In this document: one piece after another, positions 4,677 through 40,187 of the stretch | Numbering within the stretch: the stretch's first letter is position 1 | Layout of the letters: each line of letters starts with the position of its first letter | Virus record (IMG/VR): IMGVR_UViG_3300011116_000961 | Coordinates: 1-44,545 of that record | Length of the DNA stretch: 44,545 nt | Strand: one strand, 5' to 3' | Source of the DNA: a virus | Translations under genes and position numbers: made by a program | Notes under the pieces: generated by a model | Database searches by the model: none | The model's input: only the letters and a program-made list of their open reading frames with translations | Told to the model about the DNA's origin: nothing

Positions 4677-5515
4677 AAGGAATAGGATTACCGTTTGAAT
4701 CACAATATTCGTCTTGTTCTAATATAAAACCACAAAAATTTGAATGGTCTTTAGAAAAGGGCGAGTTTGATGTTCACGTAGATAAAGGATTACTTGTTCG
4801 ACCAGATAATTCTATCACAAAAGATAAACGTTATGGGTGGGTATGCGAGTCTAGATTTATCGTGCCAGATGTATATAATTTTTTAATCCATAACCATAAA
4901 GTACTTTTTGAAAATTTTTATACAGCAATCTACACATGTGATCAATCTTTATTAAATTTAGATCACCGATTTAAATACTGTCCAAACGGAAGTAACTATC
5001 CGTGGATACGAAAATCTGACTGGGGGATTTATCAAAAAACTAAAAAGTGTTCTATGTTTGCTTCTCCAAAACAATACACAGAAGGACATGTATACCGACA
5101 CACAATAGCTAGACTGGCTCTTGATCGCGGATTTGATGTTTTTGGTGGTGCACACGGAACACCCAGAACAGTAATAGACCCAATGAATCCTTGGAACACC
5201 AAACTAGAAGGAATAGGTTATTATATGTTTAGTATAATTATAGAAAATGGTAATTACGATGCTTATTATACCGAAAAATTAACAGATTGTTTTGCGACAG
5301 GAACTGTGCCCATATATTGGGGAACAAAAAAATTACCAAAAGAATTTGACCCAGAAGGAATAATATGGTTGAATAAAGACAGCGAACAATCGATATTAGA
5401 TTCGTTATCTCGTGAATTATATGAATCTAAAATAAAATCAATAAAACATAATTTAAATGCATTGGTTGATCTGCTTCCTGCTGACGATTTTTTGTTTGAG
5501 GAAATAGTTAAGTGA
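4652..5515 (+). CDS. GT10-like (alpha-1,3/4-fucosyltransferase-type) glycosyltransferase
   Basis: The protein is 287 aa. Its C-terminal half contains the GT10 signature IENGNYDAYYTEKLTDC followed by GTVPIYWG (about residues 200-225), the region that binds GDP-fucose in characterised GT10 enzymes. It starts inside the previous GT gene (25-nt overlap), and its TGA overlaps the GTG start of the GT11 gene. A second GT10-like gene follows at 6310. With GT11 and the GDP-mannose dehydratase at 16253 this points to fucose or a related GDP-deoxyhexose. The exact sugar is unproven. Confidence 0.83.
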   Translation: MAKSGHKVKGIGLPFESQYSSCSNIKPQKFEWSLEKGEFDVHVDKGLLVRPDNSITKDKRYGWVCESRFIVPDVYNFLIHNHKVLFENFYTAIYTCDQSLLNLDHRFKYCPNGSNYPWIRKSDWGIYQKTKKCSMFASPKQYTEGHVYRHTIARLALDRGFDVFGGAHGTPRTVIDPMNPWNTKLEGIGYYMFSIIIENGNYDAYYTEKLTDCFATGTVPIYWGTKKLPKEFDPEGIIWLNKDSEQSILDSLSRELYESKIKSIKHNLNALVDLLPADDFLFEEIVK

Positions 5516-6222
5516 TAACATTTTCGTTTATTGGAAACTTTGGTCGTTTGGGAAATCAGATGTTTCAATACGCTGCAATTGTGGGTATTGCAAAAAAGAA
5601 CGGTTACGATTACTGTTTTCCGTTAAAAAATACACAACTACCAAACTGGTTTAATATAACAGCCAAAGACGGAGTACACCAATGCCAACGAGCACATTTA
5701 GAGAGTTTTGGATTTGAGCCAGCAGTTTTTCAACTACCTGATAATATAGATTACTCTGGCTATTTTCAAAGTGAAAAATATTTTAAACACTGTTCAGACC
5801 TCATACGAAACGAATTTACATTTAAAAATAATGTAACACAAAAAGTAGACGAATGGTTTAAAGGTAAACAATTTGTTTCTGTTCACGTCAGACGTGGAGA
5901 CTATTTGCCAATTCAAGACATTCATCCAGTTGCTTCTATAGAATGGTATCGTGAAGCAATGAAACGCTTTCCTGATAAAAAATTTTTATTCTTTAGTGAT
6001 GATCTTGATTGGTGTAAACATACATTTCCAGAACACGAATTTTCTCCTTTTACAAATGAAGGAGAAGACATGTATGCCATGAGTAGATGTTCAGGACATA
6101 TTATTACCAATAGTTCTTTTAGTTGGTGGGGAGCTTGGTTGTGTAAAGGAAAAACTATAGCACCAAAAACATGGTTTGGTCCTAATGGACCACAAGATTG
6201 GCAAGTAAAGGAAAAACTATAG
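5512..6222 (+). CDS. GT11-like alpha-1,2-fucosyltransferase, 3' end altered by tandem duplication
   Basis: GT11 hallmarks are plain: GRLGNQMFQYAA (~11-22) and the GDP-binding HVRRGDY (~125-131), plus the late TNSSFSWWGAWL motif. The start is GTG 5512 inside the preceding gene's stop (GTGA). The reading frame ends after 236 aa with an odd VKEKL tail because a 62-bp unit is duplicated in tandem (6143-6266). If one copy is removed, the protein continues with DIYCTDWVII and stops, giving 241 aa with a normal-looking GT11 end. The present product loses only the last 10 residues, so it may still be active. Confidence 0.87.
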   Translation: MITFSFIGNFGRLGNQMFQYAAIVGIAKKNGYDYCFPLKNTQLPNWFNITAKDGVHQCQRAHLESFGFEPAVFQLPDNIDYSGYFQSEKYFKHCSDLIRNEFTFKNNVTQKVDEWFKGKQFVSVHVRRGDYLPIQDIHPVASIEWYREAMKRFPDKKFLFFSDDLDWCKHTFPEHEFSPFTNEGEDMYAMSRCSGHIITNSSFSWWGAWLCKGKTIAPKTWFGPNGPQDWQVKEKL

Positions 6223-17241: not shown

Positions 17242-17250
17242 ATGTTAACT

Positions 17251-18495
17251 ATGCCTAAACTATGCCTGTCAATGATTGTTAAGAATGAAACTCACATTAT
17301 TAAAGAGTGCCTTGATTCTATTCACAAGTATATTGATTATTGGATTATTGTAGATACTGGTTCCACAGACGGAACACAAGAGTTAATCAAACAATACTTT
17401 GCTGAAAAGGGAATTCCTGGCGAACTTCACGAGCGACCATGGGTGAGCTTTGGTGACAATCGCACGGAAGCACTACGGCTGTGTGATGGTAAAGCAGACT
17501 GGGCGTGGATGATTGATGCTGACGATTTTATTCAAGGCAAATTTGAGTTTCCGTTTAACATTCCCAATGAACTAGACGGCTGGGCTCTTAAATTTGCTCG
17601 CGGCGAGTTTGAATGGTGGAGAACACAAATTTTTAGAACAGGTAGAGACTGGAAGTACGTGGGGGTACTTCACGAATACCCCACAATTGAGGGTAAACAA
17701 CCTAATATTGGTAAAGTAGAAGGCAATTACGCAATTGTTGCTAGAACTTTAGGAGCCAGAAATAAAGATATAACTCCTGTAGAAAAGTATAAAAAAGATG
17801 CGGAACTTTTAGAAAAGGCTTTGCAAGAAGATCCTACCAATATTCGTTATCAGTTCTATCTTGCTCAAAGTTATTTTGATTCTCAACAATGGGATAAAGC
17901 TGAGGCGGCGTATATTAAAAGAGTGGAAATGGGTGGCTGGGAAGAAGAACAGTTTTATTCTGCTTTTAGAATAGGAATGTGCCGTGGACTACAAAATAAA
18001 CCGTGGCTAGAAATTCAGCAAGCGTTTCTAGAAGCATGGAATCTGCGTCCATCACGAGCAGAACCATTACATCAAATTGCAAAAATTTACAGAATGATGG
18101 GCCATCCACGACTGGCATTCTTGTTTGCTAAAATGGCTTTAGATCTGCCGTATCCTGAAAACGATATCTTGTTCGTGTCTGCAGACGTGTACAAATACGG
18201 AGTATTGGATGAGGTTGGCTCTACTGCTTTTTACGCTGGTAAACCACACATCGGCTACGCGGCATGTAAAAAACTGTTAACGGAAAATCTGCTACCAGAA
18301 TCGGAAATTCCCAGAGTTCAAAACAATCTTAAAGAGTACGTTCGTTTCTTTGAACAAACCAATCAGCTTCACCTGTTACAGCAAATGGACGAACAAGCCA
18401 AGAAACAAAGCGAAAAAAAGGACCATAAACCCGCCCTTTTCCCCGCCCATTTACCCCAAAGAAAGTTTAAACAACGAAAACCTGTAAGTAGATAA
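17251..18495 (+). CDS. GT2-family glycosyltransferase fused to TPR-like repeats
   Basis: The 414-aa product opens with the classical GT2 start LCLSMIVKNETHIIKECLDS, then IIVDTGSTDGTQELI (~29-43) and WAWMIDADDFI (~84-94) with the DxD metal site. From about residue 175 it changes to helical repeats (YQFYLAQSYFDSQQWDKAEAAY, then further A..Y...G...A units) typical of TPRs. The C-terminus is Lys/Pro-rich. TPR-fused transferases often act on protein acceptors, so this enzyme may glycosylate a virion protein from the adjacent adhesin genes. It is less AT-rich than the genes upstream. Confidence 0.85.
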   Translation: MPKLCLSMIVKNETHIIKECLDSIHKYIDYWIIVDTGSTDGTQELIKQYFAEKGIPGELHERPWVSFGDNRTEALRLCDGKADWAWMIDADDFIQGKFEFPFNIPNELDGWALKFARGEFEWWRTQIFRTGRDWKYVGVLHEYPTIEGKQPNIGKVEGNYAIVARTLGARNKDITPVEKYKKDAELLEKALQEDPTNIRYQFYLAQSYFDSQQWDKAEAAYIKRVEMGGWEEEQFYSAFRIGMCRGLQNKPWLEIQQAFLEAWNLRPSRAEPLHQIAKIYRMMGHPRLAFLFAKMALDLPYPENDILFVSADVYKYGVLDEVGSTAFYAGKPHIGYAACKKLLTENLLPESEIPRVQNNLKEYVRFFEQTNQLHLLQQMDEQAKKQSEKKDHKPALFPAHLPQRKFKQRKPVSR

Positions 18496-35229: not shown

Positions 35230-36257
35230 CGCTATTCATTGACAAAAAATTCATCAATCTGATGTCAGGCCAACTCCAACGGTTTGCGTGGAAGAAAGAC
35301 AATCTGGCAAACTGTCGTTGTCCTATCTGTGGTGATTCCAGCAAGAACAAAGTTAAGGCTCGTGGATTCTTTTTTGAGAAGAAAGGTGAGTTCTTTTTTA
35401 AGTGTCATAACTGCAGTATTGGTCTTAACTTATACAACTTTATGAGTAAAGTTGCTCCAAACCTATGTAAAGAGTACAGTCTAGAAAAGTTTAAAGAGAA
35501 ACAACCAACACAGGAAAGGGAAAAACCTAAGATGCTGTTCTCCAAGAAGCCCAAGAAGAAATATACGATTGAGCTACCTACCGTTGCGGAACTACCACCC
35601 AACCATATGTGCCGTCAGTTTGTGGAGTTGCGTCACATCCCTAAGAAGATGTGGCAACACCTGTATTACGCTGAAGATTTTGCACAATGGGCACGACGCA
35701 TCAATTCGGAATCTGCTGAAGGTCTTGCAAGCGAGCCTCGTCTAGTTATTCCTATTCTGGATCGTAAAGGGCATCTTGTAGGAGCACAAGGACGAATTCT
35801 TAAAGTGTCTACAGATCGTGCTGCTCGTAAAAGTGTACGTTACATCACAATTAAGCCTGATGATCAAGAACACAAGTCTTGGTACGGTCTAGATCGTCTG
35901 GATCTGTTGGGAACAGTATACGTGGTTGAAGGCCCATTAGATTCACTGTTTATTCCTAACTGTCTTGCTACTGTAGGAATGAGCGACGTGTTCAATCCAC
36001 CAAAAGAAATTAAATCTCGTTCTGTTATTTACGTCATGGATAACGAACCACGAAATCTACAAGTGGTTCAAACTATGGAAAAACTTATTGATCAACACAA
36101 ACGAGTTTGTGTATGGCCGGATCATATCAAGCATAAAGACGTTAATGATATGATTATGGATGGTATGGATGCAACCAAAATCCTAAATACCATTAACGAG
36201 AATGCTGTGTCGGGGCTTGAAGCACAAATAAGGATCAAAAAATGGAAGAAGATTTAA
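35226..36257 (+). CDS. 61: DNA primase (gp61, DnaG-type with zinc finger and TOPRIM)
   Basis: The 343-aa protein (T4: 342) carries an N-terminal zinc ribbon with Cys32, Cys35, Cys60 and Cys63 (CPIC ... CHNC), a central RLVIPILDRKGHLVGAQGR strand region (~172-190), and a TOPRIM domain with VVEGPLDSLF (~233-242) and YVMDNEPRN (~269-277), followed by CVWPDHIKHKDVND (~295-308). It makes RNA primers with gp41 for lagging-strand synthesis. It overlaps gp41 by 4 nt and the acidic gene by 16 nt. Confidence 0.95.
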   Translation: MTLFIDKKFINLMSGQLQRFAWKKDNLANCRCPICGDSSKNKVKARGFFFEKKGEFFFKCHNCSIGLNLYNFMSKVAPNLCKEYSLEKFKEKQPTQEREKPKMLFSKKPKKKYTIELPTVAELPPNHMCRQFVELRHIPKKMWQHLYYAEDFAQWARRINSESAEGLASEPRLVIPILDRKGHLVGAQGRILKVSTDRAARKSVRYITIKPDDQEHKSWYGLDRLDLLGTVYVVEGPLDSLFIPNCLATVGMSDVFNPPKEIKSRSVIYVMDNEPRNLQVVQTMEKLIDQHKRVCVWPDHIKHKDVNDMIMDGMDATKILNTINENAVSGLEAQIRIKKWKKI

Positions 36258-36529
36258 CTCCAGACGAGCCAGAAAAAGAATACGAAGAGATAGAAATAGA
36301 CAGTGATAATCCTATATTTGTGTTTTGTTTTATGTTCATGGAATATATTAAGGAAATAGATCCAAAACTATACGACAAAGCCCATAAATATGCACACGAC
36401 CATACAGATATTGATATTACAGATTTTGAAATAGGTGAATTTGAAGAAATAGAAGAAGACGATGAGATTGAAGATGAAGATGAAGAGGACGATGGAGATA
36501 TAGATTATGATACAGACAAATACGAATGA
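36242..36529 (+). CDS. Highly acidic small protein of unknown function
   Basis: The protein is 95 aa. Both ends are almost solid Asp/Glu (opening MEEDLTPDEPEKEYEE, tail EIEDEDEEDDGDIDYD), with a short less acidic centre (NPIFVFCFMFMEYIKEIDPKLYDKAHKYAHDH, residues ~22-55). Such acidic proteins can mimic DNA or bind basic domains, but no specific homology is visible. It overlaps primase by 16 nt and the TOPRIM gene by 23 nt, so it belongs to the same transcript. Translation in this frame is supported by coupled starts and GAAGAAG-type purine tracts upstream. Confidence 0.65.
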   Translation: MEEDLTPDEPEKEYEEIEIDSDNPIFVFCFMFMEYIKEIDPKLYDKAHKYAHDHTDIDITDFEIGEFEEIEEDDEIEDEDEEDDGDIDYDTDKYE

Positions 36530-37592
36530 TTATCTAAGTCCAGATGAAATTGGAGAATTAGATGACAGTAATTATATCGTAACAGAACAATATTATCTGA
36601 ACGATCAGTCGGATGATAACTACGGAGTCTTGTATGCAAATACAAGATTTGTCCCTGCTGAAGAAAAAGAATTGTATTTTTTTGTTGAAAATTTATACGA
36701 TTGGTTTGAAAAATATGCGGTTTTAGACGATGAAACATTAAATTTCATAAAAAACGAATATCCGTATATGTTAAAAGATCCTGCAGATGTAACAACACTA
36801 GGGAAAGGATACAGTTATATTGGTTGTTTTTGCAGAAATTCAGACGGAAAAATATATGGTGTTTCTTTAAGAAATATTGGGTTTACATTCGTGGAACGTA
36901 AGTTTGTAAGATTTTTCTTTAGATTTTGTTATAATAAAAATAAAAATAAATTAGTTTTTTTTAGATATAAAATTGGTACAACCTTTAAACCCGGTTTAAA
37001 GGATTTTATAAAATTTAAAGATTTTCAATGGTTTACTAATAGAAAGACTAAAGTAGATCCAACCAAACCTATAGTTGTTACAGAAGGGATATTTGATGCT
37101 AATTTTTTTGACAATTCAATAGCATTAGGTGGTATTTTACCAGGATTAGCAATACCAAAATTGTATAAAGATTCGGAATTAATATTTGTGTTAGATAATT
37201 CAATTAATAGAAATATATACAGAGTTTCTAAAAATATATTAAAAATGGGGTATAAACTATTTGTCTGGCCCAGTTCATTAATTGGATTTAAAGATTTTAA
37301 TGATTATATTAGAAGTATATACGAACAAAATTCTGTAAAATTTAGACTACAACTACCATTTGAATATAATTATGACATAAAAAAAGGATTAATGAATAAT
37401 ACAAATCAAGGATTTAGAAAATTGCCTATAAGAATAACTGAAGGCGAGTATCCTAATTATATTCTTCCTTCACCGGAATTTATAAGAGAAGCCAAATCTA
37501 TTTTGTATAAACTGGTGTTTTTAGATAATAATTTATTAGAGCATAAAGATTTACAAACATTTGAAGCAAAATATACTCGAAAACAATTATAA
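36507..37592 (+). CDS. Divergent second TOPRIM primase-like protein, no zinc finger
   Basis: A 361-aa AT-rich gene just after primase. Residues 190-270 parallel gp61: VVTEGIFDANFF (gp61 VVEGPLDSLF), FVLDN at 227-231 (YVMDN), LFVWP (CVWP) and FKDFND (HKDVND). The E-to-D distance (Glu193 to Asp230) is 37 residues in both. Upstream, YIGCFCRNSDGKIYGVSLRN matches gp61's IPILDRKGHLVGAQGR. There is no CxxC zinc ribbon; the N-terminal ~100 residues are instead acidic and aromatic. A primase paralogue with changed function is the best reading. GGAG at 36494-36497 supports the ATG 36507 start. Confidence 0.75.
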   Translation: MIQTNTNDYLSPDEIGELDDSNYIVTEQYYLNDQSDDNYGVLYANTRFVPAEEKELYFFVENLYDWFEKYAVLDDETLNFIKNEYPYMLKDPADVTTLGKGYSYIGCFCRNSDGKIYGVSLRNIGFTFVERKFVRFFFRFCYNKNKNKLVFFRYKIGTTFKPGLKDFIKFKDFQWFTNRKTKVDPTKPIVVTEGIFDANFFDNSIALGGILPGLAIPKLYKDSELIFVLDNSINRNIYRVSKNILKMGYKLFVWPSSLIGFKDFNDYIRSIYEQNSVKFRLQLPFEYNYDIKKGLMNNTNQGFRKLPIRITEGEYPNYILPSPEFIREAKSILYKLVFLDNNLLEHKDLQTFEAKYTRKQL

Positions 37593-38281
37593 TGAATACT
37601 ATTAAAATTTTAGATAAAGGACACGTAGAATATGTGGATCATATGGGTTCGGATCTTACAGTTGTCAATGCTGCTAGAGTCTCATTCGCTAAAACAAGTG
37701 AATGGGAAATCACAAAAGATGGTGCATATGTGTTATCAACCAGAGATCAAAAACTTATCAAATATCTGGCAGAACACAATCACTGGACGCCTTTTGCGCA
37801 CCCGCAGATTACCCTCAGAATCAAGGCTCCTATTTTTGTCCGAACACAACTATTCAAACACAAAGTCGGATTTACCGAAAATGAAATTTCGCGTCGTTAC
37901 GTAACCAACGAACCAGAAGTGTATCTTCCTAATTGGCGTAGTGCACCAACAAATGGTGCAAAACAAGGCAGTTCTGATTTTATCTACGACAGTATTATTG
38001 CGGATTTTGATGTTAATTATGAAAACACAGTGTCAAAATCAGTAAATTTATATAATGAGCTTATAAAACAAGGAGTTGCTCCAGAACAAGCACGGGCCGT
38101 ATTGCCGCAAGGCACCTACACTGAGTGGTGGTGGACCGGATCGCTCTCAGCGTACGCTCGTGTGTTTAAACAACGAATAGATACGCATGCTCAATGGGAA
38201 GTACAACAGTACGCTGACGGTATTGGAAAAATATTGGAACCATTGTTTCCACATTCTTGGGCAGTACTGACCGCTAAATAA
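37592..38281 (+). CDS. thyX: Flavin-dependent thymidylate synthase ThyX
   Basis: The 229-aa protein has HWTPFAHPQITLRIKAPIF (~65-83) and the ThyX signature FKHKVGFTENEISRRYV (~88-104; classical form RHRxxSxNExSxRY, with Lys-His-Lys here), followed by PEQARAVLPQGTYTEWWW (~168-185), which binds nucleotide. ThyX makes dTMP from dUMP using FAD, NADPH and methylene-tetrahydrofolate. It acts downstream of the phage dUTPase. It is followed by RNR, making a nucleotide-supply block. The start shares a base with the previous stop (TAATG). Confidence 0.93.
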   Translation: MNTIKILDKGHVEYVDHMGSDLTVVNAARVSFAKTSEWEITKDGAYVLSTRDQKLIKYLAEHNHWTPFAHPQITLRIKAPIFVRTQLFKHKVGFTENEISRRYVTNEPEVYLPNWRSAPTNGAKQGSSDFIYDSIIADFDVNYENTVSKSVNLYNELIKQGVAPEQARAVLPQGTYTEWWWTGSLSAYARVFKQRIDTHAQWEVQQYADGIGKILEPLFPHSWAVLTAK

Positions 38282-38315: not shown

Positions 38316-40187
38316 ATGCATTTACCTACACCTTATCAAGAGTTTATTCATCTTTCACGGTACTCACGTTGGCTAGAGGAGGAAGGCCGTCGTGAGAGTT
38401 GGGAAGAAACAGTTAATCGTTATTTTAACTATTTTGACAAGCACCTGAAAGCCAACACCAAGTGTAAACTGGATAAGGAGACTCGTGAAGAACTACGCCA
38501 AGCGGTTCTACATCTAGAAGTAATGCCTTCGATGCGTTCTCTGATGACCGCAGGTGAGGCACTTGACAGAGACAATACCGCAGGGTATAATTGTTCGTAC
38601 GTGGCCGTGAATCGTGTTCGTGCTTTCGATGAAATTCTATATATTTTGATGTGTGGAACCGGAGTGGGGTTCTCTGTGGAGCGACACTATGTTGACAAAC
38701 TTCCTACAATCGCTGAAGAGTTTACTGACTCTGACACGACAATCGTTGTACAAGACAGCAAGGCTGGTTGGGCTAAAGCTTTCAAGGAGCTTGTCTCCCT
38801 ACTCATTGGTGGTCAAATTCCACGATGGGACCTATCTAAGATACGCCCTGCTGGTGCCCGACTCAAAACTTTCGGAGGTCGTGCGTCTGGCCCAAAGCCA
38901 CTGGATGATCTGTTTAGGTTCAGTGTGGATACATTTAGAAGAGCTGCCGGACGAAAACTCACCTCCATCGAATGCCACGATATTGTCTGTAAAGTTGCGG
39001 AAGTTGTTGTGGTCGGAGGCGTCCGTCGATCAGCTCTTATCAGCCTTTCAAATCTTACCGATGAACGGATGCGTGATGCTAAGACTGGAGCATGGTGGGA
39101 AGCTAATCCTATCGGTACCTTCATGGAAGAATGGGTGTCCCTGTACAAGAGTAAGAGTGGTGAGCGTGGTATCTTTAACCGTGACGCATGCCAGAAGACT
39201 GTAGCCAAACTAGGTGAGCGTCGTGATGCAGGTTACGAGTTTGGTACCAATCCGTGCTCAGAAATTATTTTACGAGATCGTGAGTTCTGCAATCTTACAG
39301 AAGTAATTGTTCGTCCTAATGATACCCTAGAATCGCTAGCTCGCAAAGTTCGTCTTGCTGCAATTCTAGGTACATGGCAAGCCTCGCTAACCAATTTCCC
39401 GTATCTGTCCAGCGAATGGAAGAAGAACTGCGAAGAGGAAGCACTACTTGGTGTGTCTCTCACCGGCATTCTAGACAACACTACAATGCGTGATATGCAC
39501 GGCCTTAAAGCTAATCTGTCCAATCTCAAGGAGATGGCGATTAAAACCAATGCAGAATGGGCCAAAAAGCTGGGGATCAATCCTGCAGCAGCGATTACCT
39601 GTATCAAACCGAGCGGTACAGTTTCACAACTTACAGATGCGGCTTCAGGTATCCACGCTCGTCACAACGAGTACTATATCCGTACTGTTCGTGCTGACCG
39701 TAAGGATCCCCTGTGCCAGATGATGATTGAAAAGGGATTCACTCACGAACCGTGCGTGATGAAGCCTGATTCGGTTATGGTGTTCTCGTTCCCCATGAAA
39801 GCAGAAGGCTCGGTTACCCGTAACGACATGACTGCTATAGAGCATCTGGAACTGTGGCTGGCTTATCAGCGATACTGGTGCGAGCACAAGCCGTCTATCA
39901 CTGTGACTGTACGCGAGCACGAGTGGATGGAAGTAGGTGCGTGGGTGTACAAGCATTTTGACGAGATTAGTGGTATTTCGTTTCTACCACACTCAGACCA
40001 TTCATATCGTCAAGCACCGTATCAAGACTGCACCAAAGCCCAGTACGAAGAACTGCTTGCAGCCACTCCCAAGGATATTGATTGGAGTGAACTCAAGAAA
40101 TGGGAAAAGATGGACCAAACTGTTGGAACACAATCGTTTGCTTGTAGCGGCGATAAATGTGAACTGGTTGATTTAACTAATAACTAA
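38316..40187 (+). CDS. nrdJ: Class II (B12-dependent) monomeric ribonucleotide reductase
   Basis: This 623-aa protein resembles the monomeric Lactobacillus leichmannii-type ribonucleoside-triphosphate reductase. The cysteines fit: Cys93 (GYNCSYV) as redox partner, Cys314 with Glu316 (TNPCSEII) as thiyl and acid, Cys325 (EFCNL, 11 residues on) as second redox Cys, and a C-terminal pair Cys610/Cys615 (ACSGDKC). GTGVGFSVER and TCIKPSGTVSQL are family signatures. It reduces ribonucleotides to dNTPs using adenosylcobalamin and no NrdB, so it works with or without oxygen. The phage depends on host cobalamin. It is shorter than the 739-aa prototype. Confidence 0.93.
   Translation: MHLPTPYQEFIHLSRYSRWLEEEGRRESWEETVNRYFNYFDKHLKANTKCKLDKETREELRQAVLHLEVMPSMRSLMTAGEALDRDNTAGYNCSYVAVNRVRAFDEILYILMCGTGVGFSVERHYVDKLPTIAEEFTDSDTTIVVQDSKAGWAKAFKELVSLLIGGQIPRWDLSKIRPAGARLKTFGGRASGPKPLDDLFRFSVDTFRRAAGRKLTSIECHDIVCKVAEVVVVGGVRRSALISLSNLTDERMRDAKTGAWWEANPIGTFMEEWVSLYKSKSGERGIFNRDACQKTVAKLGERRDAGYEFGTNPCSEIILRDREFCNLTEVIVRPNDTLESLARKVRLAAILGTWQASLTNFPYLSSEWKKNCEEEALLGVSLTGILDNTTMRDMHGLKANLSNLKEMAIKTNAEWAKKLGINPAAAITCIKPSGTVSQLTDAASGIHARHNEYYIRTVRADRKDPLCQMMIEKGFTHEPCVMKPDSVMVFSFPMKAEGSVTRNDMTAIEHLELWLAYQRYWCEHKPSITVTVREHEWMEVGAWVYKHFDEISGISFLPHSDHSYRQAPYQDCTKAQYEELLAATPKDIDWSELKKWEKMDQTVGTQSFACSGDKCELVDLTNN

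Follow-up and report, generated by a model that had tools for sequence, protein, structure and literature searches.

A second, zinc-less gp61-like TOPRIM protein encoded beside the primase gene in a viral replication cluster

The primosome of T4-like phages is regarded as one helicase plus one primase. Why, then, does the replication cluster of a T4-like phage carry a second gene for a gp61-like protein behind its gp61 primase gene? We addressed this question in the IMG/VR virus record IMGVR_UViG_3300011116_000961, positions 1 to 44,545 of which are called the window below. The gene in question, o361, its regions, and its neighbors are listed in Table 1. The local order on one strand is uvsX, an 89-aa ORF, gp41, gp61, o95, o361, thyX, ribonucleotide reductase, and o93, with a DNA polymerase gene upstream of this cluster. 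The start of o361 overlaps the end of o95 by 23 nt, and its TAA stop codon has one base in common with the ATG of thyX. No promoter or terminator of o361's own was detected beyond chance.

Table 1. Positions in the window of o361, its regions, and neighboring genes
Feature	Position	Strand	Remark
o361, second zinc-less gp61-like TOPRIM protein, 361 aa	36507..37592	+	ATG start; profile and structure matches
Acidic N-terminal stretch, o361 residues 1-46	36507..36644	+	
N-terminal lobe of the RNA polymerase domain, o361 residues 47-185	36645..37061	+	
TOPRIM core, o361 residues 186-272	37062..37322	+	
C-terminal extension, o361 residues 273-361	37323..37589	+	
gp61 DNA primase, the paralog, 343 aa	35226..36257	+	zinc domain, N-terminal lobe, TOPRIM, HIM2
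gp41 replicative helicase, 464 aa	33835..35229	+	named from gene order and T4 similarity; conserved in relatives
o95, acidic-tailed 95-aa ORF	36242..36529	+	conserved neighbor upstream of the insertion slot
thyX-like gene (thymidylate synthase)	37592..38281	+	named from sequence; conserved neighbor downstream of the slot

Other features of these sequences were noted in passing. The ribonucleotide reductase of the window (38316-40187) lacks, near position 39110, 16 amino acids, QRALANNSVVYKEKPE (48 nt, in frame), which were present in five of the five relatives read at this site. Either a conserved stretch has truly suffered a deletion here, or the assembly is wrong. At locus L001, a 208-aa ORF (4954-5580), HNH-endonuclease-like by eye, lies between the reductase gene and o93, which are adjacent in the window. 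A 417-aa protein encoded at 17242-18495 of the window matched a phage beta-1,4-glycosyltransferase family (PHROG, E 1.2e-28).

Homology and predicted fold of o361

The initial annotation described o361 as a zinc-less, TOPRIM primase-like protein next to gp61. Sequence profiles and structure give good support to this reading and to o361 as a paralog of gp61. In blastp, o361 matched the adjacent gp61 over residues 189-268 (E 1e-8), and it matched PHROG primase families with E values of 2e-9 and 7e-9. When a profile of the o361 copies was compared with a profile of 20 gp61s (hhalign), residues 27-273 of o361 aligned with residues 120-314 of gp61 (probability 99.1%, E 1.1e-18); therefore, the match extends beyond TOPRIM to the N-terminal lobe. 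Pfam gave no match to o361. Weak Pfam matches below the threshold, to Dna2 for the L004 copy and to DUF3841 for the N-terminus, were set aside as chance. A repeat of part of TOPRIM in the C-terminus was considered from a weak self-match and dropped.

An AlphaFold model of o361 from an alignment with gp61 cores (pLDDT 80, pTM 0.80) had T4 gp61 as its best solved match (Z 18.7, rmsd 2.8 over 224 residues), with o361 residues 15-357 superposed on residues 115-341. Foldseek matched the o361 model to T4 gp61 with an E of 1.2e-7. A second prediction was run without any gp61 sequences to avoid circularity. Its confidence was lower (59, pTM 0.47), and T4 gp61 was again the top match (Z 13.2 over 223 residues), which supports the TOPRIM fold independently of the gp61 rows. 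Thus checked, by profiles and by structure prediction, for a missing TOPRIM fold or matches to an unrelated family, the initial reading was not refuted. In both models, the alignment ends at residue 357 of o361 and 341 of gp61, the position of HIM2. The C-terminal extension (residues 273-361) consists of a low-confidence linker and predicted helices at 323-337 and 349-360, both of good confidence in the deeper, gp61-informed model.

The N-terminal zinc-binding domain of gp61 reads the priming site. As initially annotated, o361 has no zinc ribbon: its homology to gp61 starts at approximately gp61 residue 111-120, past the zinc domain, and the CPxCGDS...CHNC stretch is absent. The N-terminus had been called new and acidic. 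It is acidic (residues 1-46, net charge approximately -10.5), but not wholly new, since the part from approximately residue 15 onward overlies the beginning of the N-terminal lobe in gp61.

Among other TOPRIM proteins, gyrase and topoisomerase IV matched the o361 model in TOPRIM only (Z 5-6.5), far below gp61, and the topoisomerase-like role once suggested for o361 thus found no support. RNase M5 and small TOPRIM proteins (Z 5.3-5.9) also matched in TOPRIM only. These matches and the partial metal site that remains in o361 might indicate a TOPRIM nuclease or other nucleotide-processing enzyme derived from primase. However, the matches are far below that to gp61, o361 carries no ATPase or other nuclease domain, and the second acid of the metal site is lost; we regard such an enzyme as highly improbable. 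Of the TOPRIM superfamily features, o361 has the fold and the E motif, with D-N-S/T/G in place of DxD. OLD, RNase M5, and topoisomerase proteins share the fold with o361, with weak, TOPRIM-limited structural matches; unlike them, o361 has no ATPase, rRNA-binding, or topoisomerase domains. Pfam detected no ATPase that would represent an OLD-type N-terminal ATPase, and the N-terminal half of o361 is a primase N-terminal lobe.

Active-site residues and helicase contacts

Residues were compared between 43 gp61s and the three o361 sequence types. The TOPRIM core of the window o361 contains E193-G-x-x-D197, D230-N231-S232, W254, and K262-D263-F-N-D. The E-to-D interval is indeed 37 residues in both window proteins (E193-D230 in o361, E235-D272 in gp61); it is 35 in T4 gp61 (E234-D269). 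Ten residues invariant among the 43 gp61s (R136, R190, E235, G236, D239, G251, D272, N273, K304, and D305) are kept in all o361 copies that cover them, the partial L026 copy not reaching the region of the two arginines. The equivalents of R136 and R190 in o361 are R47 and R122. By motif, R47 may correspond to T7 R84, which affects ssDNA binding (PMC9198812). Lost from o361 are the equivalents of P176, G189, and T208 in the lobe, of E274 (replaced by S, T, or G) and P275 after D-N, and of A333 and W340 (the latter replaced by F) in HIM2; R276 is kept only in L004.

The loss of E274 bears on the metal site. The DxD motif of o361 had been considered reduced to D-N as in gp61, which is wrong for gp61: 41 of the 43 gp61s carry D-N-E, and a profile alignment places this motif over D-G-D of Staphylococcus aureus DnaG. 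Therefore, only o361 has lost the second acid, and it has done so in all three copies. The E is not absolute in gp61, since one sequence has D-N-Q and one D-N-D. A VWP...KD.ND tail shared with gp61 was also annotated; it is present in the window copy (KDFND), but not in the relatives (KDFTE and KDFNE). The change from D to E in this motif was first considered a loss of catalysis, and was not counted as such because T7 gp4 carries KDANE. Thus, of the complete gp61 metal site (E..D, D-N-E, KD), o361 has kept E, D, D, and KD. We do not see in this partly kept, partly lost site a clean sign of death, but take it as evidence against normal priming.

This pattern bears on the proposal that o361 is an alternative primase or an enzyme that extends primers. 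Its polymerase domain would then be active without a zinc domain of its own, perhaps with the gp61 zinc domain supplied in trans. In favor of this proposal, o361 retains the gp61 fold, and E193, D197, D230, K262, and D263 are invariant among three copies that are only 40-46% identical. However, the second acid is S, T, or G in every copy, and in T7 the equivalent residue, Asp-209, is reportedly indispensable, even for extension. o361 has also lost T208, P176, and most of the PR in DNEPRN. The losses of the second metal acid, the zinc domain, and the helicase motifs weaken this proposal, which we consider quite unlikely.

In the T4 primosome, gp61 binds gp41 via HIM1 (residues 74-97) and HIM2 (residues 327-341), one gp41 dimer is left unoccupied by gp61, and 4.9% of particles have only the RNA polymerase domain stably bound (PMC10359460). 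HIM1 falls in the part of gp61 that is absent from o361. The last helix of o361 (residues 349-360) lies at the HIM2 position; however, the A and W of the GLxA...W signature are not kept. Since these signature residues are gone, helicase binding by o361 is not supported by sequence.

Distribution and divergence

o361 was found in four IMG/VR records as three sequence types, always directly before thyX: in the window, in contig 3300007735_000477 (99% identical to the window copy), in contig 3300020183_000277 (L004), and in contig 3300047550_005102 (L026, cut at the 5' end). At 13 loci whose gp61 is 77-93% identical (L005, L007, L008, L010-L018, and L020; junctions read for seven), o95 runs straight into thyX and o361 is absent. 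The 13 records lacking the slot copy that were searched whole contained no copy elsewhere. Two populations of metagenome 3300007735 differ in the presence of o361. No further copies came from broader scans of IMG/VR in which N-terminal, TOPRIM, and thyX sequences were the queries. Among cultured phages, no record covered 80% of o361, the listed matches being gp61s over residues ~168-319, and no near-identical phage was found. Two pattern scans of bacterial and archaeal genomes yielded no relative of o361 at the sensitivity used. Distant copies may be missed because the contig scans rely on short conserved patterns. Matches at L028 and L029 were rejected as o361; they belong to a 645-aa protein with a gp61-like match.

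Six more distant relatives (L041, L042, L061, L071, L074, and L075) carry other insertions of ~0.8-1.8 kb between gp61 and thyX, with no o361-like sequence. The slot between these genes looks like a general insertion place. Contig 3300020183_000277 (33 kb; L004 and L020) has a gp61-o95-thyX-reductase block at each end, the two being oppositely oriented. The two blocks differ in sequence, only one of them contains o361, and the contig is probably a chimeric assembly. L019, in which gp61 is 84%, gp41 61%, and uvsX 35% identical to the window, the latter two as in another phage group, is either mosaic or chimeric. At L018 (1222-2269), gp61 is interrupted by a frameshift at about residues 31-34, within the zinc domain or close to it.

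As initially noted, o361 is much more AT-rich than gp61 (GC 26.4% vs 40.5% in the window). The three copies have GC fractions of 0.264, 0.246, and 0.231, vs 0.40 for gp61. Since the low GC occurs in every copy, we regard it as a lasting trait rather than the mark of one recent transfer. Between the window and L004, amino acid identity is 0.41 for o361, 0.91 for gp61, 0.81 for thyX, and 0.97 for gp41. The Nei-Gojobori dS is ~1.0 for o361, gp61, and thyX alike, whereas dN is 0.53, 0.059, and 0.128, respectively, that of o361 being 9-fold that of gp61. At fourfold sites, p is 0.64 for o361 (25 sites, near saturation) vs 0.46. Separate acquisition and fast divergence had initially been proposed as alternative origins. 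With fourfold sites few and near saturation, these comparisons make common descent at this locus and rapid change of the protein likely without proving them. In a tree, the three o361 copies formed one group (100/100) on a stem of 4.1 changes per site. This stem is too long for an origin to be trusted from the position of the group beside two distant gp61s.

Such a patchy gene may be a decaying, functionless duplicate of gp61 on its way to loss, as its lost motifs and low GC would also allow. However, the frames are intact in three lineages, the overlapping gene ends are maintained, and between the window and L004 the TOPRIM core is the best conserved region (44 of 87 positions) and the linker the least (5 of 35). 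In the comparison of the window with L001, pN was 0.006 vs a pS of 0.013 (five and three changes, weak). We consider decay very unlikely; with intact frames and TOPRIM as its most conserved part, o361 is probably functional.

The same patchiness, together with the speed of protein change, suggests a role in interference or counter-defense. A primase mimic could soak up a host or rival factor aimed at gp61 or gp41, or, by blocking sites for ssDNA or helicase, poison the primosome of a relative infecting the same cell. The sporadic presence, including the difference between the two populations of one metagenome, the high dN at a dS similar to that of gp61, and the single slot with AT-rich composition in all copies are consistent with such a role. 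However, no PADLOC model, from a library of described defense proteins only, matched o361 up to an E of 1, and no known defense partner was identified. A pure decoy would have no need of active-site acids, yet these are retained, and speed and patchiness alone are no proof of conflict. We regard interference as the main rival to the explanation given below, and as somewhat unlikely.

Possible role of o361 at the replication fork

T4-type gp61 (T4 gene 61; PDB 8dvf, 8gao) resembles o361 in its N-terminal lobe, TOPRIM fold, and C-terminal helix, in the EG..D, DN, W, and KD residues, and in being adjacent to gp41. In contrast to T4 gp61, o361 has no zinc domain or HIM1, has lost the second metal acid and the HIM2 signature, carries an 89-residue C-terminal part past TOPRIM, evolves very fast, and is optional. 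Since it fails several defining features of gp61 despite the gp61 plan, we do not class o361 with the gp61 primases.

Primase domains that are inactive or have no zinc motif have precedents in the short form of T7 gp4 and in metazoan Twinkle (PMC3610141). T7 gp4B is, like o361, a natural zinc-less version of a DnaG-type primase beside a full-length form; however, it arises from an internal start in the same gene and is fused to a helicase, whereas o361 is a separate, diverged gene without a helicase domain. The primase-like N-terminal domain of metazoan Twinkle has likewise lost its zinc motif; its catalytic motifs are lost and the domain stays at the fork. Unlike o361, it is helicase-fused, stems from an unrelated loss event, and has lost different residues. 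The literature searched contained no description of a separate gp61 paralog gene next to an intact gp61.

Our best, albeit tentative, explanation is that o361 is a gp61 paralog turned non-priming accessory of the primosome. An accessory subunit and a decoy were both among the roles initially proposed. o361 has kept the fold of the RNA polymerase domain, with the N-terminal lobe, TOPRIM, and C-terminal helix, and shed the zinc domain with HIM1, the second metal-site acid, and the HIM2 sequence signature. We infer from these residue and domain losses that de novo primer synthesis has been lost. The lobe and the C-terminal helix that remain would let o361 bind ssDNA, the end of an RNA/DNA primer, or gp41 and gp61 in complex, and thereby influence how primers are made or handed on. 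A conceivable docking site is the gp41 hairpin dimer that is not occupied by gp61 in the T4 structure. The fold, the kept arginines, and the place in the replication cluster, where o361 stands directly behind uvsX-gp41-gp61-o95 in a co-directional, compact arrangement with overlapping ends, point to a role at the fork. However, E, D, D, and KD of the active site are retained, so that some metal-dependent chemistry may remain. o361 is not a core part of the replisome because most close relatives do without the gene.

We further speculate, as an unlikely case, that phages have a family of primase pseudoenzymes, of which o361 would be the first to be seen. A gp61 copy that occupies the gp41 hairpin or the primer site would then act as a dominant regulator or poison of primosomes, whether its own or those of a rival phage, or as a shield against host factors, and conflict would drive its sequence.

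o361 would represent a natural dissection of a primase, in which the fold has been kept and the parts needed to read the start site, dock on the helicase, and bind metal fully have been dropped. If o361 touches the primosome, priming itself would be regulated, or contested between phages or by their hosts.
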